From the NCBI RefSeq assembly GCF_904846235.1, contig NZ_CAJGZN010000003.1, positions 124,001-188,000 on the forward strand: a stretch of 64,000 bases of DNA. The letters are read 5' to 3'. This DNA comes from Psychrobacter immobilis (GTDB lineage: Bacteria > Pseudomonadota > Gammaproteobacteria > Pseudomonadales > Moraxellaceae). Of this stretch, positions 1 to 57,224 are shown one piece after another. The first letter of the stretch is position 1, and the number at the start of each line of letters is the position of its first letter. The notes under the pieces were generated by a model. The model did not search any database. It was not told where the DNA came from and saw nothing but the letters and a program-made list of their open reading frames with translations. Made by a program: the position numbers and the translations under genes.

Positions 1-167
1 TCCTGTGACCAAAGTGCCGTATCTAGATTTGCTAGTAATGTCTCATCTTCAATTAAAATCAGCAAAGACTGAGCGCTTTTGTTAAGCGCCGTCTGAGTCA
101 GCTGACAAATAAAGCCCAAGAAATCTTGGGCCTTACTTTCACTTAATACATAAAAACTAATTTTCAT
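1..167 (-). CDS. holC: DNA polymerase III subunit chi (HolC), partial
   Basis: The first 55 residues are visible; the gene runs off the left edge of the window. Chi links the clamp-loader complex to single-strand binding protein at the replication fork. The reading begins MKISFYVLSESKAQDF and ends with DTALWSQ, matching the chi pattern of an N-terminal Rossmann-like strand and a DEALW-type helix. The ATG lies 7 bases beyond the pepA stop codon, and pepA-holC is the usual order in gammaproteobacteria, so the two are probably co-transcribed. The fragment is short, so the call rests on context as well as sequence. Confidence 0.8.
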   Translation of the reverse strand, partial: MKISFYVLSESKAQDFLGFICQLTQTALNKSAQSLLILIEDETLLANLDTALWSQ

Positions 168-174
168 AAATGAA

Positions 175-1830
175 TTAAGCCATCTCTGCGCTGTTTTTTA
201 GATATTGCATAAACAATGGTACAGGACGTCCAGTGGCTGCTTTGTCTTTACCTGAATTCCATGCAGTACCAGCGATATCTAGATGCGCCCATGCTTGACC
301 TTCTTCAATGAAACGCGATAAGAAGCAGGCGGCAGTTACGGCACCAGCACCTTTACCACCGATGTTTTGCATATCAGCGATTGGTGAATCAAGCTGAGCT
401 TGATATTCATCATCTAAAGGCATATGCCAAATTAGGTCGCCTGATAGGTTGCTGGCATTTTCTAAATCAAACAGGACATCTTCATCATTACTAAATACGG
501 CTGAACGCACATGGCCTAGCGCAACCACACAAGCGCCAGTCAAGGTGGCAACATCGATGATGGCTTTTGGCTGATAACGCTGCACGTAACACAAGGTATC
601 TGCTAGTACTAAGCGACCTTCAGCATCAGTGTTCAAGATTTCAACTGATTTACCATTCATCGCTTTAACGATATCGCCTGGACGCGTTGCATCACCTGAT
701 GGCATGTTTTCAGCACAGGCTAGCGCACCAACGACGTTGATTGGTAGACGCGCTTCGCACAACGCTTTGATTGTACCAAGTACTGACGCCGAACCACCCA
801 TATCAAACTTCATCTCATCCATCGCTGCACCTGGCTTGATTGAGATACCGCCTGAATCAAAGGTCACGCCTTTACCGACTAATACGATAGGTGCGTCGTC
901 ATTGGTCGCTTGTGCATTGTCATTGCTATTTTTGCTTGCATTTTTAGCTGACTTTTTGGTTGGTAGTTTATCGGCTAATGCCTTTAGACTACTTACTTTT
1001 GCGTTGCTAGTGGTTTGCTCGGTAGTGCCTGCATTTGAACTAAATTCTGATTTGCCACGGTACTCCATGAGCACCAGCTTACCTTCTTTAGTAGAGCCTT
1101 GTGCAACGGCCAAGAAGCAATGCATACCTAGCGCTGACATCTCGTCTTCACCTAGTACTTTCACGGTTAATAGGTCAGGGTAAGTTTTCGCAAGTTCTTG
1201 AGCTTGCTCTGCCATATAAGCTGGGAAGCATATATTGCCAGGCTCATTGGCTACATCACGAGTGAGGCTCTGACCAGCAAATACTGACTGAGCAAAGGCA
1301 AGTGCAGGCTGTAGTGACTCATCAGCTAACAGATAAACATCAGTCAATACAGGACTCGCTTGCTCAGACTTATACTTGTCAAAGCGGTAGCTTGCTGCCA
1401 ACAGATTAAGGGCAAATTGACCAAAGTGATTTTCTTCCAGTGCATCACCCAAGGCGACAGTGATAGAAGACACACGCTTTTGTGTGCTGCTATAGATAGT
1501 GTTGGCGATTTTTTGCAGTACGGTGTTGTTGAACTTATCAGTGTTACCTACACCGACCAACAGCAGTTGTACAGGGTTTTGCTTAGTGGTTTTTTTATCA
1601 CCTGCTAATGCGTAGTCAGCAACAGTCTCACAGGTAGTGCCCTTGAAGTGAGATACTTCAATCAGCTGCTCAATACGAGTGGTATATTCGGTCAGCACAG
1701 ATTCAGCAAGAATGTTTTTCTTGTCATCGACCAATACAACCAGACAAGCATCGTCTTTACTTTTGGCTTCTTTTTTCAGGATTTTTTGCGTATGGGTCTT
1801 TGGTAAATGCTGAGATAATTTGATATTCAT
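175..1830 (-). CDS. pepA: Leucyl aminopeptidase (cytosol aminopeptidase, M17)
   Basis: A cytoplasmic di-metal exopeptidase that removes N-terminal residues from peptides; in E. coli PepA also binds DNA as a Xer accessory factor. The M17 signature NTDAEGRL is at residues 400-407, with the metal and catalytic residues K320 (VGKGVTFDSGG), D325, K332, D343, D402, E404 and R406 all present. At 551 residues it is about 50 longer than usual. The excess is a Ser/Lys/Asn-rich low-complexity insert at about residues 261-312, between the N-terminal and catalytic domains. It is followed directly by holC, and divergent lptFG lies beyond the hydrolase gene, a conserved neighbourhood. Confidence 0.97.
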   Translation of the reverse strand: MNIKLSQHLPKTHTQKILKKEAKSKDDACLVVLVDDKKNILAESVLTEYTTRIEQLIEVSHFKGTTCETVADYALAGDKKTTKQNPVQLLLVGVGNTDKFNNTVLQKIANTIYSSTQKRVSSITVALGDALEENHFGQFALNLLAASYRFDKYKSEQASPVLTDVYLLADESLQPALAFAQSVFAGQSLTRDVANEPGNICFPAYMAEQAQELAKTYPDLLTVKVLGEDEMSALGMHCFLAVAQGSTKEGKLVLMEYRGKSEFSSNAGTTEQTTSNAKVSSLKALADKLPTKKSAKNASKNSNDNAQATNDDAPIVLVGKGVTFDSGGISIKPGAAMDEMKFDMGGSASVLGTIKALCEARLPINVVGALACAENMPSGDATRPGDIVKAMNGKSVEILNTDAEGRLVLADTLCYVQRYQPKAIIDVATLTGACVVALGHVRSAVFSNDEDVLFDLENASNLSGDLIWHMPLDDEYQAQLDSPIADMQNIGGKGAGAVTAACFLSRFIEEGQAWAHLDIAGTAWNSGKDKAATGRPVPLFMQYLKNSAEMA

Positions 1831-35119: not shown

Positions 35120-35960
35120 GGGCGTGTCTTCAATTGGATAAGCCCTAAATAATAGTTACAATACCGCATCTATTGAGTCGATGCGAGAAATACAAGTTAT
35201 GGCAAGAAAAGCATTAACAGATACGCTTTGGGATCAATTGCAATCGACGATGATAAAGTACGGCTGCTATCAAACTCAAAACAGCCGAGAGATCATGGAA
35301 GCCATACTGTGGAAACTACGCACAGGGGCGCCTTGGCGTGACATACCTGAAGAATTATGTTCGTGGAAAACAGCCTATAGTCGTTTCAACCGCTGGTCGA
35401 AAACTGGCTTATGGGCGGATTTTTTTTTGGCTTTTGAGCAGAAGTTGATACGGAATGGGTATTCACAGACGGAAGCTATGTTCGCTGTCATCAGCATGCA
35501 AGTGGAGCTCGGCGTGGTGAAGATCGAGCAATTGGACAAAGCCGTGGCGGAGCAACTACAAAGATACACCTATCCTGTGATGCCGATGGATATCCGCTCC
35601 ATTTTAAAATCACTGGGGGTGACGTCCACGACAGTCAAATTGCAGGTGAATTGATTGAGATGATTGGACAGGCAGATTACTTTATCGCTGATAAAGGCTA
35701 TGACTCAGAGTGTATCAGAGACAAAGCTCGCAGCCATAATATGATACCTGTCGTTCCTAAAAGGAAGAATGCCAAACAGCCTAATCCAGAGTTTGATAGC
35801 TATTTGTACAAGCTGCGTCATCTTGTTGAAAATATGTTTGCAAGGCTTAAACATTTTCGTAGTATCGCCACTCGCTATGAGAAGTTAGCGCGTAATTTTA
35901 AGTCAATGCTTTATCTGGCGTGTACTATCGTTCATTGTAAGATGAATTGAAGACACGCCC
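35120..35960 (+). mobile_element. IS5-family insertion sequence (IS427-like)
   Basis: An 841-bp element with perfect 16-bp inverted repeats: GGGCGTGTCTTCAATT at 35120-35135 and its complement at 35945-35960. It is flanked by a direct TA (35118-35119 and 35961-35962), a short target duplication typical of this group. It carries a DDE transposase in two frames. Inserted between yheV and its terminator, 7 bp from the yheV stop codon. Confidence 0.93.
35199..35950 (+). pseudogene. IS5-family transposase, split by a frameshift
   Basis: The first frame (from MARKALTDTLWDQ) gives the N-terminal helix-turn-helix part and continues to 35654 as non-family sequence. The family sequence resumes in the -1 frame at about 35438 (EVDTEWVFTDGSYVRCHQHASGA) and continues to 35950, with the DDE residues in TDGS, GDVHDS and RHLVENMFARLKHFR. 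The change falls near GAGCAGAAG at 35436-35444. It may be a one-base deletion or a programmed -1 shift, as some IS427 elements use. No classic slippery heptamer is at the site, so inactivation is more likely. Confidence 0.75.
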
Positions 35961-36225: not shown

Positions 36226-38439
36226 TTAAATGACCTCACGAGTCGTTTGAGTATTTGCGGCATCGATACTTTTAACATCAGTGAAACCATTATGGCGTAA
36301 CAAGGCGTCGATACTGGCGCTACGACCGCGGAAGTTTTCAAAATTGATTTTCGCTGGGAAACTGCCGCCAACAGATAAGATAGATTCACGGAACGCTTTG
36401 CCTGTCGCTGGGTTGAAAATACCGTCTTCTTCAAACTTACTAAACGCATCCGCTGATAGCAGTTCCGCCCATTTGTATGAGTAATAACCTGCAGCATAAC
36501 CACCCGCGAAGATATGACTGAAACCATTAGCAAAGCGGTTATAGTCAGGTGTTTGCATAACGGAAATATCATTACGGACAGTATTGAGCGTCTCTAAAAT
36601 ACCATCGTAATTAAGTGCTGGCGTATGAGCATGAATGAGTAAATCAAATAGAGCAAACTCAATCTGACGCAGCGTTTGCATGCCGCTTTGGAAATTTTTG
36701 ACTGCTAGTAGTGCATCGAGCTTGTCTTTAGGTAATGGCTCACCAGTCTCAACGTGGCTGCTGATAAGGGCGATACCTTCAGCGTCCCAAGCCCAGTTTT
36801 CCATAAACTGACTAGGAAGCTCGACCGCATCCCATTCAACGCCATTGACACCAGCGACATCACCGACCGTCACTTGAGTCAGTAAATGATGCAAGCCATG
36901 ACCAAACTCGTGGAATAAGGTTAATACTTCATCATGGGTCAATAAACTAGGTTTGCTATCAAGTGCTGGCGTGAAATTTCCAACCATAAAGCAAACGGGC
37001 AGCTGCTGATGGTTCAGTTCTTCGTAACTATAGCGAGATTGGAAACCACTCATCCATGCACCGCCACGCTTACCGCTACGTGCAAATAAGTCAAAGTAGA
37101 AGCCACCGAGCAAGCGATCATCAGCATCGAATAATTGATAAAAACTCACATCGTCATGCCAGCGAGAGACTGAATCACTTTCTGCATTTTTATGGCTTTG
37201 CTCTTGTACTTTAATACCGTATAGACGCTCAACGATAGTGAACAAGCCATTAATCACTTTGGGTAATGGGAAATATGGGCGAATCTCCTCTTGCGATAAG
37301 CTGAACTCACTTTGTTTTACCTTTTCAGCGATATAGGCGCTATCCCACGGTTGCAACTCGTCAATGCCATAATCGCTAGCATATTTTTGTAGCTGTGCCA
37401 AATCTGCTTTGGCAGCAGGGGTTGCTTGCGTTGCTAAGTCACGTAAGAATGTTTCAACTTCTAAGACGCTATCTGCCATCTTGGTCGATAGCGATACTTC
37501 AGCATAATTTGCAAAACCAAGTAGCTTGGCTTTTTGCTCACGTAATGAGAGTATTTGACTCATATTGTCAGCATTATTTAATGAATTACCTTTTGCATTG
37601 GTATGCGTATCAAATTCAGAGGCGCGCGTAACGTAAGCACGATAAAGCGTCTCACGTAGACTACGATCGTCCGCATGAGTCATGATCGCTAGATATACAG
37701 GGATATTTAAACTGGCCACATAGTAAGGAGTAGGAAGTGCATCTACATCAGCTTGGCTAAGTGCACCGCTAGCAAGCTCACGTGCTTTGTATTGCTCGCC
37801 TGCATCTGCCAATAGTGCCAAACCACTCTCTGTTAACCCCTTTAACTGAGAGTCTTCTAAAGGCAGGGCAAATGCTTGCGTCGCATCCAAGATATTGTCC
37901 GAAAAGGTTGCAGACAGGGTAGATAACTCGCTTTGGATAGCAGCAAATTTTTCTTGCTCAGCTTGAGGTAATGCAACGCCTGATAACTCAAAACTACGTA
38001 ATGCCAGTTCGATTGCACGTGCACGAGCAGGCTCTAACGTAGCAAAGAAATCTGTGTCATTGACGATAGTTTGATAGCGATTAAACAAAGGCTGATGTTG
38101 TCCAACTCGTGTACCGTAGGCAGACAGCTTTGGTAGCAGTTCATGGTGAACATGTCGAATCTCATCGTTGCTCATCACACTATTGAGATGCGACAAAATA
38201 CCCCAGCTACGATCTAATGCCAAATTTATATGATCAAAGCTCATCACATCTGCCAAAGCTTGTTCAGCGCTTATTTTTTCAGCACTGTCGCTTTCTATCA
38301 CAGTTAAGGTATCTAAAAAAGCATTGGCAGCATCAATAGCGTCAATCACTTGGTTCTGTAACGTATGTGGCGCAGTGTCGGTAAAATCGACAAGGCGTAA
38401 ATCTAAAGGAGAAGGTGTCATATAGTTATCCGGTATCAA
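36226..38439 (-). CDS. prlC: Oligopeptidase A (M3 zinc metallopeptidase)
   Basis: A cytoplasmic thimet-type peptidase that degrades short peptides, including cleaved signal peptides. The HExxH motif is in LTLFHEFGHGLHHLLTQ, with the third zinc ligand downstream in GVEWDAVELPSQFMENWAWD. The helical N-terminal half is typical. 737 residues, longer than the 680 of E. coli, with small polar inserts. Coupled to yheV. Confidence 0.97.
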   Translation of the reverse strand: MIPDNYMTPSPLDLRLVDFTDTAPHTLQNQVIDAIDAANAFLDTLTVIESDSAEKISAEQALADVMSFDHINLALDRSWGILSHLNSVMSNDEIRHVHHELLPKLSAYGTRVGQHQPLFNRYQTIVNDTDFFATLEPARARAIELALRSFELSGVALPQAEQEKFAAIQSELSTLSATFSDNILDATQAFALPLEDSQLKGLTESGLALLADAGEQYKARELASGALSQADVDALPTPYYVASLNIPVYLAIMTHADDRSLRETLYRAYVTRASEFDTHTNAKGNSLNNADNMSQILSLREQKAKLLGFANYAEVSLSTKMADSVLEVETFLRDLATQATPAAKADLAQLQKYASDYGIDELQPWDSAYIAEKVKQSEFSLSQEEIRPYFPLPKVINGLFTIVERLYGIKVQEQSHKNAESDSVSRWHDDVSFYQLFDADDRLLGGFYFDLFARSGKRGGAWMSGFQSRYSYEELNHQQLPVCFMVGNFTPALDSKPSLLTHDEVLTLFHEFGHGLHHLLTQVTVGDVAGVNGVEWDAVELPSQFMENWAWDAEGIALISSHVETGEPLPKDKLDALLAVKNFQSGMQTLRQIEFALFDLLIHAHTPALNYDGILETLNTVRNDISVMQTPDYNRFANGFSHIFAGGYAAGYYSYKWAELLSADAFSKFEEDGIFNPATGKAFRESILSVGGSFPAKINFENFRGRSASIDALLRHNGFTDVKSIDAANTQTTREVI

Positions 38440-38917
38440 TGAATTATTATTAATAAAAATGAGAATGAGATAAGTCTGGCTACTATCGAAATATACAGTG
38501 TGTTCTTATTTTATATATAGATTATATAAAAGATGGGTTCGTTTGGTAAAAATACAACCTAAGCACTTTTATACGATTCAACTAATTAGGACAGTGCTAG
38601 CAATCTGAAAGTAAATGTCGAGATTCTGATATTTAGATTCAACTTCTCAAGATAATTATCTGAATATGTAGCTATGCTCGTTAAATCAATTCTTTAACAA
38701 TATAGAGTGCTCTACTTACAAAGCGCTATCATTTGCTTGCAAATTAACCCTACAGGGAGTGGGGTATAGCTGTTAGCATCAAGATAATGGAATTTAAATA
38801 TTATGCATCGACAGGATGCAAGAAAAACACGGATAGAAATTTCTACACTTATAAAAGTACATGAGTGAAGAAATACATAAAGTTAAAAATGAACGATAAT
38901 AAAACAAGGAGCAATAT
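38440..38917 (+). promoter_or_regulatory. Upstream region of the Balon gene
   Basis: A 478-bp gap between prlC (divergent) and the Balon gene. It contains a perfect 12-bp palindrome TAGAAATTTCTA (38834-38845) whose end overlaps CTACACT (38843-38849), close to a sigmaS-type -10. A hairpin TGCATC/GATGCA with 5-nt loop lies at 38804-38820. The ribosome site AAGGAGC lies 6 bases before the ATG. The transcription start is not proven; the arrangement suggests an operator or structured leader. Confidence 0.45.
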
Positions 38918-40030
38918 ATGAAAGCGACTCTTAAAAGTTTACGTGAAACTAAAGCTAACCCTGCAGTAAGTATCTTTGTTAAAACGCATCGTGAACATCC
39001 AGCTAATGAGCAAGATCCTATCGCTCTAAAAAACCAATTAAAGGTTGCCGAAGATCGTCTGACAAAAGAGTACGATAAACGAACAGCGACTACCATTCTA
39101 GATAATATTCAAAATAAAATCAGTGAGCTCAATCACAATTATAACCTTGATACTTTAGCTATATTTGCTAGTACAGATGATGTGCAAGTCATTCGTATGC
39201 CAATTGATACAACAGAACGCGTTGTGATCTCAGATAGATTTGCTACGCGTGACTTGGTTCGTGATATGGCAAGTGCGGTTCATTATTATACGGTGGTCTT
39301 AACTCGTGATAATGCGCGTTTGATTGAAGCGTCTAACGACCGCGTTGTAAGAGAGTTCGATAAAGATGATGATGCACAAAACAATATGGAGAACATTCAG
39401 TTCCCTGTTGAAAACAACGGACTATACACAACAGGCGACGGTGGCTCAGATCGCTCATCAAACAATGAAAGCAGTCACTTAAAAGAATTCTTTAACCAAG
39501 TTGATAAAAGTGTCCAAGAATTGTGGGGCGAGCATAAAATGCCTCTTGTTATAGTTGGTGATGCAAAAAATATTGGCTACTATAAAGAAATCTGTGATCG
39601 TCCAGACAATATCATCGCTACAGTATCGAATGCGACCAATCTAGAAGACGGTAGTGCTCAGCATATCGTAGATAGCGTGCAAGAAGCCGTAGAAGAGTAT
39701 CGCACCTCATTACATAAAGCTGCATTGGGCGAAATCGACAAAGCTCGCGGTGCGAATATGTTGCAGACTGACTTGCAGGAAGTATATCGAAGTGCTTTCC
39801 AAGGAGCTGGCGAGACACTTTATGTACGACGTGGCTATATACAATCTGCTAAGATTGATGAAAAGGCACAAACGTTAAGCCCTGCCAATGATGCTACTAC
39901 GGAAGGCATCACAGATGATGCAATCGGTGAAATCATCGAGCACGTCATTCACAATGGCGGCGAAGCTGTATTTATGCCACAAGACATCATGGGTGAAGAT
40001 CAACCAATAGCGTTAGTAACTCGATACTAA
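38918..40030 (+). CDS. balon: Balon, aeRF1/Pelota-related ribosome hibernation factor
   Basis: A 370-residue (about 41 kDa) protein of the bacterial aeRF1-like (baeRF) group. It starts with MKATLKSLRETKANPAVSIF, the usual opening of this group. The N-terminal domain covers about 1-145, a Gly/Ser/Asn-rich linker with GDGGSDRSSNNESSH follows at about 172-187, then an eRF1-domain-3-like C-terminal part (PLVIVGDAKNIGYYKEI, residues 209-225, to the end). There is no GGQ and no NIKS motif, so it cannot act as a termination factor. In Psychrobacter urativorans Balon enters the ribosomal A site with EF-Tu-GDP during cold shock and stationary phase. Monocistronic, with its own terminator. Identity is from memory of the family; no alignment was run. 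Confidence 0.9.
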   Translation: MKATLKSLRETKANPAVSIFVKTHREHPANEQDPIALKNQLKVAEDRLTKEYDKRTATTILDNIQNKISELNHNYNLDTLAIFASTDDVQVIRMPIDTTERVVISDRFATRDLVRDMASAVHYYTVVLTRDNARLIEASNDRVVREFDKDDDAQNNMENIQFPVENNGLYTTGDGGSDRSSNNESSHLKEFFNQVDKSVQELWGEHKMPLVIVGDAKNIGYYKEICDRPDNIIATVSNATNLEDGSAQHIVDSVQEAVEEYRTSLHKAALGEIDKARGANMLQTDLQEVYRSAFQGAGETLYVRRGYIQSAKIDEKAQTLSPANDATTEGITDDAIGEIIEHVIHNGGEAVFMPQDIMGEDQPIALVTRY

Positions 40031-40113
40031 TCTGACGATGACACCTATACGCGATGTTCATTTATGAATCAGCCATTTATGAATTAGCCATTGATAATAC
40101 ATAGGTGTAATAT

Positions 40114-40150
40114 GAGAGCATTGGTTCAATACGAGCCAGTGCTCTTTTTA
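40114..40150 (+). terminator. Terminator after the Balon gene
   Basis: Stem GAGCATTGG (40116-40124) with CCAGTGCTC (40136-40144), one G-T pair, 11-nt loop, then five T. Confidence 0.9.
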
Positions 40151-40238
40151 TGTCTGTCATTACCATCACTATGGGTGCTGTCGTAGCTGAGCTATTGATC
40201 TTTACTCCATAAATAATGAGCGTACAACTAACCAAACT

Positions 40239-40994
40239 ATGACTACCACCTCTTTTGTTTTAACCAGCTACAATATCCATAAAGGCATGTCACCGCTGAA
40301 TCGCCAAGTGAAGATGCAAGGTATTGCTCAGGCGCTAGAGTCTGTGGGTTCAGACGTCTTGTGTTTACAAGAAGTGCAAGGCCAAAACCTCAAACGCAAT
40401 ATGCAATATAACGAGTACCCAGATCAATCACAGCATGAATGGTTCGGCGAATTTTTAGATTTGCAAAACAGTTACGGTAAAAACTCCGAATACGAAAACG
40501 GCCACCACGGCAATGCAGTATTGAGCCGCTTTCCGCTAGACCCCAAACACAATGTAAATATTACGGTTAATAAGCTTGAGCAGCGCGGTGTCTTGCACTG
40601 TGAGGTACAGCCTATCGGTTGGGAGATGCCAGTTGTCGTATTGTGTGCACATTTAAATTTATTTGAGCGCGATCGTATCAAGCAGTATCAAGCGATTAGT
40701 GATTATGTGCGAAATGAGATTGCGCCGAATCAACCGCTCATCTTGGCAGGCGATTTTAATGATTGGAAAAAGATGTCTTGTGACAAACTGGCATCAGATC
40801 TCGGTATGATAGAAGCGTTCAAACATTGTCATGGTAAGCTGTTGCCAACCTTTCCCGCAAAACTGCCAGTACTCAGCTTAGATCGTATCTACGTGCGCAA
40901 TTTGCTTGTGAAGGATGCTTGGGTACATACTGGAAAGCCTTGGTCATCGCTATCAGATCACCTGCCTATCAGTGCAGAGCTGATGCTACCCTAA
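40239..40994 (+). CDS. Endonuclease/exonuclease/phosphatase family protein
   Basis: 251 residues with the EEP fold: SYNIHKGMSP (conserved Asn), CLQEVQGQ (metal-binding Glu), GHHGNAVLSRFPL, LILAGDFNDWKK (GDFN catalytic Asp-Asn) and SDHLPISAEL (catalytic Asp-His). It resembles E. coli YbhP. The substrate (DNA, phospholipid or nucleotide) is unknown. Preceded by the Balon terminator, so independent. Confidence 0.88.
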   Translation: MTTTSFVLTSYNIHKGMSPLNRQVKMQGIAQALESVGSDVLCLQEVQGQNLKRNMQYNEYPDQSQHEWFGEFLDLQNSYGKNSEYENGHHGNAVLSRFPLDPKHNVNITVNKLEQRGVLHCEVQPIGWEMPVVVLCAHLNLFERDRIKQYQAISDYVRNEIAPNQPLILAGDFNDWKKMSCDKLASDLGMIEAFKHCHGKLLPTFPAKLPVLSLDRIYVRNLLVKDAWVHTGKPWSSLSDHLPISAELMLP

Positions 40995-51946: not shown

Positions 51947-52016
51947 ATTTGGCAAGATAACACGCATATCACAAGCAATGCTTTTTTATACCGTTGTTAA
52001 ACTTCAGGAGTCCTAC

Positions 52017-53183
52017 ATGCGTTATTCGTTATTAGCAGTGGCCGTCAGTTGTACATTAATGCTTACGGCGTGTAATAAGTCAACAGATACAGCGGAGCCA
52101 ACTGCTGATACTAGCAGTAGCGCTGTGACAACAGCTGAAACAACCTCTCAGACAGCATCTTCTGCTACGTCAGATTTTAAATCTGCTGAAAATATCGCTA
52201 TGAATATTACAGGTGCAGGTGCGTCGTTCCCGCAGCCTATCTATGCGAAATGGTCATATGATTACAATGCTGCGACTGGTGGCCAAGTCAACTATCAGTC
52301 GATTGGCTCATCTGGTGGTATCAAACAAATTCAGTCAAAAACAGTAGACTTTGGTGCTTCTGATGCCCCAATGACGCCTGAAGAGTTAGACGAAGCAGGT
52401 CTGATTCAGTTCCCAACAGTCATCGGTGGTGTTGTACCAATCGTCAACATTGATGGCGTTGAGCCTGGTGCACTGAAGCTAGACGGTACGACTTTAGCTG
52501 ATATCTATTTGGGTAAGATTAGCAACTGGAATGACCCTGCGATTAAGGCGATGAACCCAGATTTGACCTTGCCAGATGCCCCAATCACAACAGTATTCCG
52601 CTCAGATGGTTCAGGTACGACCTTCAACTTCACTGACTATCTTGCCAAGGTTTCACCAGACTGGAAAGACACTGTTGGCGTTGATAAAACCGTCAAATGG
52701 CCGACCTCTGCTACTGGTGCAGGCGGTAAAGGTAACGAAGGCGTTTCAAGCTACGTAAACCGCATGAAAAACTCTATCGGTTATGTTGAGTATGCTTACG
52801 CTAAGCAAAATAAAATGTCACATACTGCGCTGAAAAACGCAGCTGGTAACATCGTACAGCCATCTGCTGAGACGTTTGCTGCAGCAGGTGATATCGACTG
52901 GTCACAACAAGAAGGCTTTTATAAAGTCATCACCAACTCTGAAACTGACCAAGCATGGCCTATCGCTGCTGCGACCTTTATCTTGGTACATAAGCAACCA
53001 GAAAATCCTCAGCAAGTCGCTGGCGTATTGAACTTCTTTGACTGGGCTTATACTCAAGGTGATGACAGCGCCATGGAACTAGACTACGTACCATTCTCTG
53101 ACACGGCAGTAGCCTTGTTCAAAGAGAAGTGGAACGAAGTGAAAGGTAGTGATGGACAGCCTGTCTACAAGCCAGCTCAGTAA
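52017..53183 (+). CDS. pstS: Phosphate ABC transporter substrate-binding lipoprotein PstS
   Basis: 388 residues. A lipoprotein signal peptide ends at LMLTAC (lipidated C19), so it is membrane-anchored in the periplasm. A Ser/Thr-rich linker follows to about residue 62, then the phosphate-binding domain with ITGAGASFPQPIYAKW, DFGASDAPMTPEEL, VFRSDGSGTTFNF and GNEGVSSYVNRMKNSIGYVEYAYA. I chose the ATG at 52017, which follows AGGAG, over the frame start at 51978, because the signal peptide then begins correctly. Confidence 0.96.
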   Translation: MRYSLLAVAVSCTLMLTACNKSTDTAEPTADTSSSAVTTAETTSQTASSATSDFKSAENIAMNITGAGASFPQPIYAKWSYDYNAATGGQVNYQSIGSSGGIKQIQSKTVDFGASDAPMTPEELDEAGLIQFPTVIGGVVPIVNIDGVEPGALKLDGTTLADIYLGKISNWNDPAIKAMNPDLTLPDAPITTVFRSDGSGTTFNFTDYLAKVSPDWKDTVGVDKTVKWPTSATGAGGKGNEGVSSYVNRMKNSIGYVEYAYAKQNKMSHTALKNAAGNIVQPSAETFAAAGDIDWSQQEGFYKVITNSETDQAWPIAAATFILVHKQPENPQQVAGVLNFFDWAYTQGDDSAMELDYVPFSDTAVALFKEKWNEVKGSDGQPVYKPAQ

Positions 53184-53221
53184 TTTGTTTCTGCTAAATA
53201 CTATTTAGCAACCGACAAGTT

Positions 53222-53262
53222 ATCCTCTCGAATAACTATTCTCCGGTAGTTGTTTGAGAGGT
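53222..53262 (+). terminator. Hairpin with T-tail between pstS and pstC
   Basis: CCTCTC (53224-53229) pairs with GAGAGG (53256-53261), and AATAACTA (53231-53238) with TAGTTGTT (53247-53254). TTTT follows. It could attenuate transcription so that pstS is made in excess over the membrane genes. Confidence 0.6.
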
Positions 53263-53339
53263 TTTAACACAGCAAATTTGATGAATACATCTTGATAGAT
53301 ATGTTTACTCATACCGTTTAAGTTTGTTGTGTTAAAACC
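53260..53339. repeat. 17-bp inverted repeat between pstS and pstC
   Basis: GGTTTTAACACAGCAAA (53260-53276) and TTTGTTGTGTTAAAACC (53323-53339) are inverted with one mismatch, separated by 46 bp. The left arm shares its GG with the preceding hairpin, so the two structures exclude each other. Confidence 0.85.
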
Positions 53340-53392
53340 TGAGATACATCTTTTTAATATTTCGATTCATCCCATTCAATGCTGAGACACTT

Positions 53393-54346
53393 ATGACAGA
53401 CTTAAGGTCCCAACTGGCTAAACAAAAACGTTACGACGCTTTATTTGTTAACTCTACCAAAGCGTTTGCCATACTCGTCCTTCTATCTCTAGGGGGCATT
53501 TTGGTGTCTCTAATTGTTGGAGCATGGCCGAGTATTCAAGAGTTTGGTTTGGGATTTTATACCAGCAATAACTGGGATACAGTCGCCAATGAATACGGGG
53601 CATTAGCGCCTATTTACGGTACCTTAGTCACGTCATTTATCGCCATTGTTATCGCGGTTCCAGTCAGTTTCGGTATTGCGATATTTTTAACCGAGATGTG
53701 CCCTAAGTTCCTAAAAAAACCACTTGGTATCGCTATTGAGTTGTTGGCTGGTATCCCATCTATCATTTATGGTATGTGGGGATTGTTCGTATTTGCGCCA
53801 TTCTTTGGTGATCACATTCAGCCATGGTTCATTGAGCACGTCGGGCCTTTACCTATTATCGGTAAACTGTTTGCAGGTGCGCCTATGGGGCTAGGTATGT
53901 TTACCGCCTCCCTAGTACTTGCCATTATGATCATACCGTTCATCGCCGCCACCATGCGCGATGTTTTCTCTGTTGTACCCGATTTACTGAAAGAGTCAGC
54001 ATATGGCATGGGCGCGACGATTTGGGAAGTCATGTTCAAGATTATCCTGCCTTATACCAAAGCTGGTGTCGTTGGTGGTGTGATTTTGGGTCTTGGTCGA
54101 GCATTGGGTGAGACGATGGCAGTTACTTTCTTAATTGGTAATGCGTTTAATATCAGTCCAAGTCTATTTACTTCTGGTGTGACGATTACTTCGGCCTTGG
54201 CCAATGAGTTTGCTGAAGCGTCAAGTGAGCTGCATCTAGCGTCTTTACTACATCTAGGCTTAATCTTATTTGTCATCACCTTCATTGTGCTGTCTTTAGC
54301 AAAACTGATGCTCATGCGCATGGATCACAAAGCAGGTAATCGATAG
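53393..54346 (+). CDS. pstC: Phosphate ABC transporter permease PstC
   Basis: Inner-membrane permease of the high-affinity phosphate transporter. 317 residues with six membrane helices and the ATPase-coupling loop [44 protein letters not shown] is also typical. Paired with PstA. Confidence 0.96.
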
Positions 54347-54407
54347 GTCTGTTACCGATTTATTGAACCTTGATAGATATTGATAAAAGATATGGGAAAT
54401 AAATATT

Positions 54408-55313
54408 ATGCCTGCTAACAATGCGATTAATGCACCACTGCCTACTAAGCCAAACGGCGCTACCCGCTACAATCAAAGCCTGTATAACAAGCGTCGTTTG
54501 ACCAACAAGTTAGGTCTAGGCTTTGCCATGTCAGCGATGGTTTTTGGCTTATTTTGGTTATCATGGATTTTGGTGACTTTGTTTGTTGAAGGCTTCCAAG
54601 GCATGGTGCAGTTGCCAATCTTTACCGCTGATACGCCGCCACCAATGAGTGCGGGCGGCTTACGTAATGCTATCGTTGGTTCGGTCATGTTGGCGTTTTC
54701 AGGCTTGTTTATCGGTGCACCTATTGGCCTTATGACAGGTATTTACTTATCTGAGTTTTCTAAAGGCAGTATGCTGGGCAAGGTCACTCGCTTCTTAAAT
54801 GATATTCTATTGTCAGCGCCATCGATTGTCATCGGTCTATTTATCTATGCACTGATGGTAAAAGGTCAAAGTTTCTCTGGTTGGGCAGGCGCGTTGGCAT
54901 TGGCATTGATTGTTATTCCGGTGGTCGTGCGTACGACAGAAAACATGCTGAATCTAGTACCTAATAGTCTACGCGAAGCGGCCTATGCGCTAGGTACTCC
55001 TAAGTGGAAACTGGTCACTCAGGTAACGGTAAAAGCTGCACGCGCGGGACTGACCACAGGTGTGCTATTGGCTTTTGCTCGAATCACTGGTGAGACAGCG
55101 CCGTTACTATTTACCGCACTTAACAATCAATACTTCAGTACTGATATGGGTCAGCCTATTGCTAACTTACCCAATACCATTTACCAGTTTGCGATGAGTC
55201 CTTATGACAACTGGCATACATTGGCCTGGGCGGCAGCATTACTTATCACCGCATCTGTCCTAGTATTGAATATTTTGGCAAGATTTATCGGTGGTAGAGG
55301 TCAGCCCAAATAA
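54408..55313 (+). CDS. pstA: Phosphate ABC transporter permease PstA
   Basis: Partner permease of PstC. 301 residues with six helices, EAAYALGTPKWKLVTQVTVKAARAGLTTG as the coupling loop, and ARITGETAPLLFTALNNQY. N-terminus basic and cytoplasmic. 61 bp after pstC, in the same operon. Confidence 0.96.
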   Translation: MPANNAINAPLPTKPNGATRYNQSLYNKRRLTNKLGLGFAMSAMVFGLFWLSWILVTLFVEGFQGMVQLPIFTADTPPPMSAGGLRNAIVGSVMLAFSGLFIGAPIGLMTGIYLSEFSKGSMLGKVTRFLNDILLSAPSIVIGLFIYALMVKGQSFSGWAGALALALIVIPVVVRTTENMLNLVPNSLREAAYALGTPKWKLVTQVTVKAARAGLTTGVLLAFARITGETAPLLFTALNNQYFSTDMGQPIANLPNTIYQFAMSPYDNWHTLAWAAALLITASVLVLNILARFIGGRGQPK

Positions 55314-55401
55314 GGGCTGAGAGCAGACCAGACCGTAGCACGCTACACGCTAAGCATTTACTTAAACTTATATGAAATTAATTGAGCTAGGTTGAAATAT
55401 T

Positions 55402-56322
55402 ATGAATGATGTCCTAAGCAACGTCCGTACGAACACGACTGCTGACAACTTTAATACGGCAACAGGCAGCCTATTAAATAGACCCATGTCTACTAGCGCC
55501 CAAGCTCAGCAACCAAACACTGCTGACTTTAATAAACAAACGATTCAAGATATTCCTAAGAACATGCCTGCTGCAAAAATGGAAGTTCGAGATCTAAACT
55601 TCTATTACGATGATTTTCAGGCATTAAAAAATATCAATATCGATATCGCCGATAAAAAAGTGACCGCTTTTATCGGTCCTTCAGGTTGTGGCAAGTCTAC
55701 GCTACTGCGTACCTTTAACCGCATGTACGATCTATATCCAGGTATGCGTGCAGAGGGCAATATCAATTTAGATGGCAAAAACATCTTGGGTAAAGACATC
55801 GATGTGAACTTACTGCGTGCACAAGTTGGTATGGTCTTTCAGAAGCCAACGCCGTTCCCGATGTCAATCTATGACAATGTCGCCTTTGGCGTACGACTGT
55901 ATGAAAAATTAAGCAAAGACGAGCTGGATCATCGCGTCGAGTGGGCACTGAAAAAATCAGCACTATGGCCAGAAGTGAAAGACAAGCTAAAAGCATCAGG
56001 ACTGTCGTTATCAGGTGGTCAGCAGCAGCGTCTGTGTATCGCCCGTAGCGTCGCGACTAAGCCTGAAGTGCTGTTGCTTGATGAGCCGACATCAGCACTG
56101 GATCCTATCTCAACGGGTGCTATCGAAGATTTGATCGAAGATCTAAAAAACGACTATACCATCGCTATCGTCACTCACAATATGCAGCAAGCAGCACGCG
56201 TATCTGACTATACGGTCTATATGTATTTGGGCGACATGATTGAGATGGGTGAGACCGATCAGATATTTACCAAACCTACCCAAACCGCGACAGAAGACTA
56301 TATTACAGGTCGTTATGGCTAA
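55402..56322 (+). CDS. pstB: Phosphate ABC transporter ATPase PstB
   Basis: 306 residues. Walker A GPSGCGKS is at 92-99, then [11 protein letters not shown]-loop [17 protein letters not shown], signature [14 protein letters not shown] and Walker [14 protein letters not shown], all PstB-like. An N-terminal extension of about 55 residues, rich in Asn and Thr, precedes the domain. Confidence 0.97.
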
Positions 56323-56441
56323 CATTGATTGAGATTGAAATCGGTACAAGCAGACAAAGCTGATTAGCATGTCATAAGCCGACTTTCTAACTTCATAGGC
56401 ACACTGCGCTATTAAAATATAGATTCTAGGGAATACCTCTT

Positions 56442-57224
56442 ATGCAAAGTGATAAGCATATCTCCAAAAGTTTTGACCAAGACCTTGATGAAGCCATCCG
56501 TTTATTTTTATACATGGGTGATAGCGCGGCTAACCAAGTGGCCAAAGCCATTCACGCTCTGATCGATAAAGACGAAACACTGGCGCAAGAAGTCATCGAT
56601 ATGGACTTCGATATCAATCGAATGGAGGTCGAACTCGACGAGCACATTTTGTTATTGGTCGCCAAGCGCCAGCCAGCAGCCAGTGATTTGCGCTTAGTCA
56701 TGTCAATCAGTAAAGGTGTGGTTGATTTGGAACGTATCGGCGATGAAGCGGTAAAAATTGCGCGAATGGCCAGTAAAATAGCGGCAGAAGGCAAATCAGC
56801 ATACGGCTATGCTGAAGTTCAGCATCTGAGCAATCAAGTCCGTCTGATGCTAAACAACTCGCTAGAAGCTTTTAGTCAATCAAATGCGGAGCAAGCGTTT
56901 GAAGTGATGCGTAATGATAGCGTGGTCAATACCGAATATCAGTCAGCCATACGCGCCTTGATGACCTATATTATGGAAGACTCGCGCCATGTATCAAAAG
57001 TCATTAATATTATGTGGATATTACGATCGCTAGAGCGTATTGGTGACCATGCACAAAATGTCGCAGAGCTAGTGATTAACTATATCAGTGGGCAGGACGT
57101 GCGTCATTCAGACTATGCGATGGTCGAAAAAGCGGTGCAAGAAGCCAATGATCGCTTAGCTGCTCGTCAAGTTAGTACATTGTCAGCCAATGAGCTAGAA
57201 ACGTCAGATAGTGATGAAGGCTGA
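56442..57224 (+). CDS. phoU: Phosphate signalling regulator PhoU
   Basis: 260 residues, two three-helix bundles with repeated metal-binding E/DxxxD motifs (VDLERIGDEAVKIARMA and RSLERIGDHAQNVAELVINYISG). PhoU links the Pst transporter to PhoR so that PhoB is inactive when phosphate is ample. Last gene of the operon, 119 bp after pstB. Confidence 0.96.
   Translation: MQSDKHISKSFDQDLDEAIRLFLYMGDSAANQVAKAIHALIDKDETLAQEVIDMDFDINRMEVELDEHILLLVAKRQPAASDLRLVMSISKGVVDLERIGDEAVKIARMASKIAAEGKSAYGYAEVQHLSNQVRLMLNNSLEAFSQSNAEQAFEVMRNDSVVNTEYQSAIRALMTYIMEDSRHVSKVINIMWILRSLERIGDHAQNVAELVINYISGQDVRHSDYAMVEKAVQEANDRLAARQVSTLSANELETSDSDEG

Follow-up and report, generated by a model that had tools for sequence, protein, structure and literature searches.

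In Psychrobacter urativorans, the ribosome hibernation factor Balon occupies the ribosomal A site both in ice-treated cells and during stationary phase, and practically all stationary-phase ribosomes of this species carry it (PMC10901736). The reported structures place its HP motif at the decoding centre, show bL27 sequestered near the peptidyl-transferase centre and EF-Tu-GDP bound on the C-terminal domain, and include binding to vacant ribosomes as well as to those loaded with mRNA and tRNA (PMC10901736). P. arcticus cells lacking Balon grew slightly faster; when they had spent three months in stationary phase, they showed a growth defect during the first day, and their rRNA degradation did not visibly differ (PMC10901736). 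The most frequent neighbour of Balon genes is raiA, and RaiA/HPF and RMF also idle ribosomes (PMC10901736) but belong to other families. These published findings agree with what an earlier note, made from sequence alone, had said about Balon when it assigned a gene to this family in a 64,000-nucleotide stretch of Psychrobacter immobilis DNA (GCF_904846235.1, contig NZ_CAJGZN010000003.1, positions 124,001 to 188,000), referred to here as the window. We consider it about 96% probable that this gene is the Psychrobacter ortholog of Balon, with a product predicted to idle ribosomes by occupying the A site in cold shock and stationary phase, likely together with EF-Tu-GDP and alongside RaiA. The protein is not new, as the Balon family, its structure, the EF-Tu link, the mechanism and a Psychrobacter knock-out have all been published, and many close relatives are already correctly named in databases. 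The modest novelty is a conserved candidate promoter element upstream of the gene.

The assignment is carried by a full-length match to the P. urativorans protein (AOC03_06830). The frame is intact, with 370 codons and no internal stop, and encodes a protein of 41.5 kDa. Against the Balon chain 8rd8_B, which also occurs in 8rdv and 8rdw, 301 of the 370 alignment columns were identical (81%, E = 2e-200), and this chain, matched over residues 1-370, was the only strong sequence match among solved structures. The two proteins, from different species, differ in the other 69 columns, and that of the window is one residue longer. The NCBIfam equivalog NF052287, named 'AOC03_06830 family ribosome hibernation factor', scored 521 bits versus a cut-off of 330, with residues 5-370 aligned to profile positions 1-361. 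The alignment and the family-model comparison that the earlier note had proposed as checks thus both came out in favour of Balon, and the stop-free frame with a score above the curated cut-off bears out its call of an intact gene. The mycobacterial Balons Msmeg1130 and Rv2629 (8v9j, 8v9l, 8v9k) showed 11-15% identity to the window protein and belong to a separate family, NF052288 (MSMEG_1130 family ribosome hibernation factor), for which the window protein reached 28.1 bits versus a cut-off of 480. In Pfam, baeRF family 3 (PF18845) matched residues 122-296 with 115.4 bits versus a gathering score of 31.5.

The predicted structure was confident (predicted local distance difference test score, pLDDT, of 90) and superposed on ribosome-bound Balon, less closely on aeRF1, with the ribosome-bound Balon chains as its best fold matches. 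The model contains an aeRF1-like three-domain fold, with the same three domains as the P. urativorans protein; a fold lacking aeRF1-like domains would have refuted the earlier note. One detail of that note has to be corrected: the Gly/Ser/Asn stretch, read there as a linker, does not join domains but is modelled as a low-confidence loop (residues 170-180) within the middle domain, just before a long helix (181-206). The sole His-Pro pair of the protein, residues 27-28, aligns with a His-Pro of 8rd8_B. It may correspond to the published HP motif at the decoding centre, for which the available text of PMC10901736 gives no residue numbers. In a 57-row family alignment the invariant positions include His24 (57/57), Asp33, Ile35 and Lys38, while Pro28 occurs in 55 rows. 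If residues 27-28 are the HP motif, its histidine is thus kept by a minority of the family and the proline is the family-wide part.

Among the alternatives, a baeRF-clade rescue or release factor, entering stalled ribosomes like Pelota or releasing peptides like aeRF1, survives best, although it is very improbable. Such factors share superfamily and fold with the window protein, and baeRF proteins have been proposed to relieve stalled ribosomes in PMC6514570, which also connects these proteins, by way of neighbouring HPF genes, with a shutdown of translation. Identity to aeRF1 and Pelota/Dom34 was about 8-16%. A scan of the 370-residue product, however, found neither GGQ nor NIKS, as the earlier note had observed; the corresponding part of the modelled middle domain is the low-confidence Gly/Ser/Asn loop. 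The letters GGQ do occur in 9 of the 57 aligned rows, always in the column of residue 347 of the window protein; since this lies in the C-terminal domain, they are not the catalytic motif. Moreover, the close ortholog is reported to prevent the nascent peptide from being released prematurely (PMC10901736). Less probable still is a different baeRF family that has nothing but the middle or C-terminal domain in common with Balon. A hint of it could be seen in the weaker Pfam matches to baeRF families 6 and 7 (above their cut-offs) and 8 and 11 (below them), but it is refuted by the 81% identity along the full length, the equivalog score and the best fold matches, and the full-length alignment led to Balon and not to another baeRF family, the outcome that the earlier note had named as decisive against itself. 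The third alternative, a methyl-accepting chemotaxis protein, which is how 8rd8_B and some source entries are named, is refuted and has a negligible probability, as no chemotaxis family appeared among the Pfam and NCBIfam matches up to E = 1 and the titles of the PDB entries holding 8rd8_B call the protein hibernation factor Balon. The chemotaxis title apparently persists as an old automatic label, a database misnomer.

The window protein most likely acts in the same way as the published Balon, because it combines 81% identity with the same predicted fold. Several points weigh against this reading. We found no experiments on the window protein itself. His27 is not family-wide, as position 27 carries His in 19 of 57 rows and Phe in 32. 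For the lasso loop, the bL27 trap and the EF-Tu beta-hairpin, the overall fold superposes and the middle domain holds the low-confidence loop, but the available text of PMC10901736 describes these parts without residue numbers. The gene lies apart from raiA (contigs C3 versus C7) and outside any evident stress operon, proximity to such genes being a common and not a defining feature. Finally, both named P. urativorans loci (L078 and L089) carry an extra same-strand frame of 275 or 271 residues between Balon and the EEP-family gene, which is missing there in the window.

Profile searches covered the host assembly, a 3.22-Mb draft of 68 contigs, a family-level sample of 249 genomes, and 105 genomes of the genus. 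The host genome contained a single Balon family match, on contig C3, and no second baeRF3. Within this one genome, the S30AE profile for RaiA/HPF had one match, a 126-residue frame on contig C7, and RMF had none, although the E. coli positive control matched. In the region of this single raiA/hpf gene (contig C7, 113001-115137), the gene follows a frame that by eye is RpoN-like, and a 357-residue frame of the sigma-70 family, perhaps RpoH, lies at a distance of about 1 kb. In the sample, the Balon family matched 118 genomes, 115 of them above cut-off, in 5 of 16 genera. All 105 Psychrobacter genomes matched (104 above cut-off), so that Balon appears to belong to the core genome of Psychrobacter. 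The identical 370-residue product is encoded in Psychrobacter sp. 4Bb, and the named relatives whose protein is identical or almost so belong to Psychrobacter. The gene was broken or cut in 3 of the 105 genomes, namely G250 (three pieces), G254 (disrupted start) and G262 (partial), with completeness of 84, 85 and 89%. The frame is broken or shifted near the N-terminus in locus L099 and in G250 (contig C51) and G254 (contig C1), and in G250 near the C-terminus too. Sequencing errors are likely behind these broken frames, because the source marks the protein of the L099 organism as LOW QUALITY. Separately, a record titled Pelistega sp. MAG (locus L108) carries a Balon 47% identical to that of the window and none of the tested Psychrobacter neighbours, owing to either horizontal transfer or a mis-binned contig.

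The region upstream of the gene was compared in two sets. For the alignment, the window and loci L032-L107 except L098 gave 76 sequences, or 55 after dereplication; for motif counts, the window and 79 of the 80 named loci gave 80 related upstream regions, L099 being dropped for its shifted reading frame. The 55 aligned regions showed two conserved islands amid poorly conserved intergenic DNA. The first consists of a two-part site, a CCCTAYAG block and a TGnTAnnnT element (Table 1). The T, G, T, A and T of the last element are kept in 52-55 of the 55 rows, and the spacing up to it is almost constant, whereas predicted leader lengths beyond it range between 88 and 469 nucleotides. In mononucleotide shuffles, which ignore the relatedness of the 80 sequences, the two-part site arose 0.005 times per 80-sequence set, and none of 200 sets contained the whole arrangement. 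The pattern was missed in L094, L095, L098, L100, L102, L107, L108 and L111, of which L100 has the two-part site and lacks the TGnTAnnnT element. The core C[CT]nTAnAG...TGnTAnnnT is kept in L094, L095, L098 and L107 although the upstream site was not found there, L098 offering 411 upstream nucleotides.

Positions 38716-38779 are probably Balon's own regulated promoter. The element is read as a promoter with an extended -10 and no -35 box, at which a putative activator would cover about -70 to -44; transcription would thus start near 38786 and leave a leader of about 131 nucleotides. The gene would be transcribed alone from this conserved promoter, in an activator-dependent and RpoS-independent manner. 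Searched with the window's own version as the pattern, the two-part site has one copy in the host genome at up to 3 mismatches, and near raiA the best match in a 3294-base locus had 8 mismatches. A shared regulon was therefore not supported, and a single genomic copy offers no set of target genes from which to deduce the regulator. That the whole arrangement forms a dedicated Balon switch across Psychrobacter, with a putative activator on a 27-bp site held rigidly 28 nucleotides before an extended -10 lacking a -35, independent of RpoS and found nowhere else in the genome within 3 mismatches, is a tentative proposal to which we give slightly less than even chances. As the element lies between divergent genes, it may also serve the M3 peptidase gene. 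We found no description of it in the open-licence literature on Balon, Psychrobacter promoters or stationary phase, and the word 'promoter' is absent from the main text of PMC10901736.

Other routes of control were considered and gained no support. RpoS-driven induction was not supported, as the RpoS model matched frames of 663 and 357 residues at 282 and 144 bits, below its cut-off of 378.7, and RpoS was thus not seen in the host genome. A PhoB box was not supported: the element has the look of a spaced repeat but differs from the classical-looking Pho box TTGTCATTAAACTGTCATAA before pstS in the same window. For BfmR, no comparable binding motif was found in the literature searched. A structured 5' leader as a conserved RNA element was likewise rejected: the window's own leader folds better than its shuffles (z -3.5), but z fell below -2 in only 4 of the 55 dereplicated leaders (mean -0.4), and Rfam gave no match up to E = 1 at 38400-40300. 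The second conserved island, before the divergent M3 oligopeptidase gene, resembles a sigma-32 heat-shock promoter.

The earlier note had also called the gene monocistronic. The divergent gene upstream, the T-tailed hairpin downstream and the start of the next gene at 40239 support this, but do not prove it; three terminator-like sites were found on both strands of 38440-40240 versus a shuffle mean of 0.8. After the hairpin, the same strand carries genes for an EEP-family protein, a zinc alcohol dehydrogenase and an EcsC protein. The divergent M3 gene accompanies Balon in 77 of the 80 named loci, including both of P. urativorans. The three loci without it are L098, whose contig ends 411 nucleotides upstream, and L108 and L111, neither of them titled Psychrobacter. 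The downstream order varies, and the gap between Balon and the EEP gene exceeds 700 nucleotides in 24 of the 69 loci where both were found. Elsewhere in the window, a 157-residue frame at 35181-35654 (+) resembles, by eye, the N-terminal portion of an IS5-type transposase.

Table 1 Features of the Balon locus and its product in the window (nucleotide positions of the window, or residues of the product)
Feature	Position	Strand	Basis or remark
Balon gene, 370 residues	38918..40030 (ATG at 38918, stop at 40030)	+	Homology, NCBIfam/Pfam profiles, predicted fold
N-terminal decoding-centre domain	residues about 1-119		
Middle domain	residues about 117-258		
C-terminal eRF1-domain-3-like domain	residues about 256-370		
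Shine-Dalgarno-like AAGGAG	38906..38911	+	6 nucleotides 5' of the ATG; inside a stretch conserved among relatives
TTACAAA-N14-TTGCAA, candidate activator site (putative function)	38716..38742	+	73/80 upstream regions; N14 in 72, N13 in 1
CCCTAYAG block	38748-38755	+	3' of the upstream site and 5' of the -10-like element, at the usual place of a -35 box
Candidate extended -10 TGTTAGCAT (TGnTAnnnT)	38771..38779	+	72/80; 28 nucleotides after the TTACAAA-N14-TTGCAA site in 71, 27 in 1
Second conserved island TTGYA-N15/16-CCCATC	38532-38557	-	67/80 upstream regions; about 0.06 expected (rough mononucleotide shuffle)
M3-family peptidase gene, divergent	36226-38439	-	Upstream of Balon
Terminator-like hairpin with T-rich tail	40114..40146	+	14 pairs, 3' of the Balon gene
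Classical-looking Pho box TTGTCATTAAACTGTCATAA	51925-51944	+	Precedes a pstS-pstC-pstA-pstB-phoU-like cluster at 51978-57224, whose genes were named by eye

Psychrobacter is the genus in which the Balon system was discovered. In the open-licence literature searched, we found no published answer to how cold or starvation induces Balon. The conserved upstream element would offer a concrete, single-locus target for asking how Balon is switched on, in a bacterium with no RpoS match reaching the cut-off.
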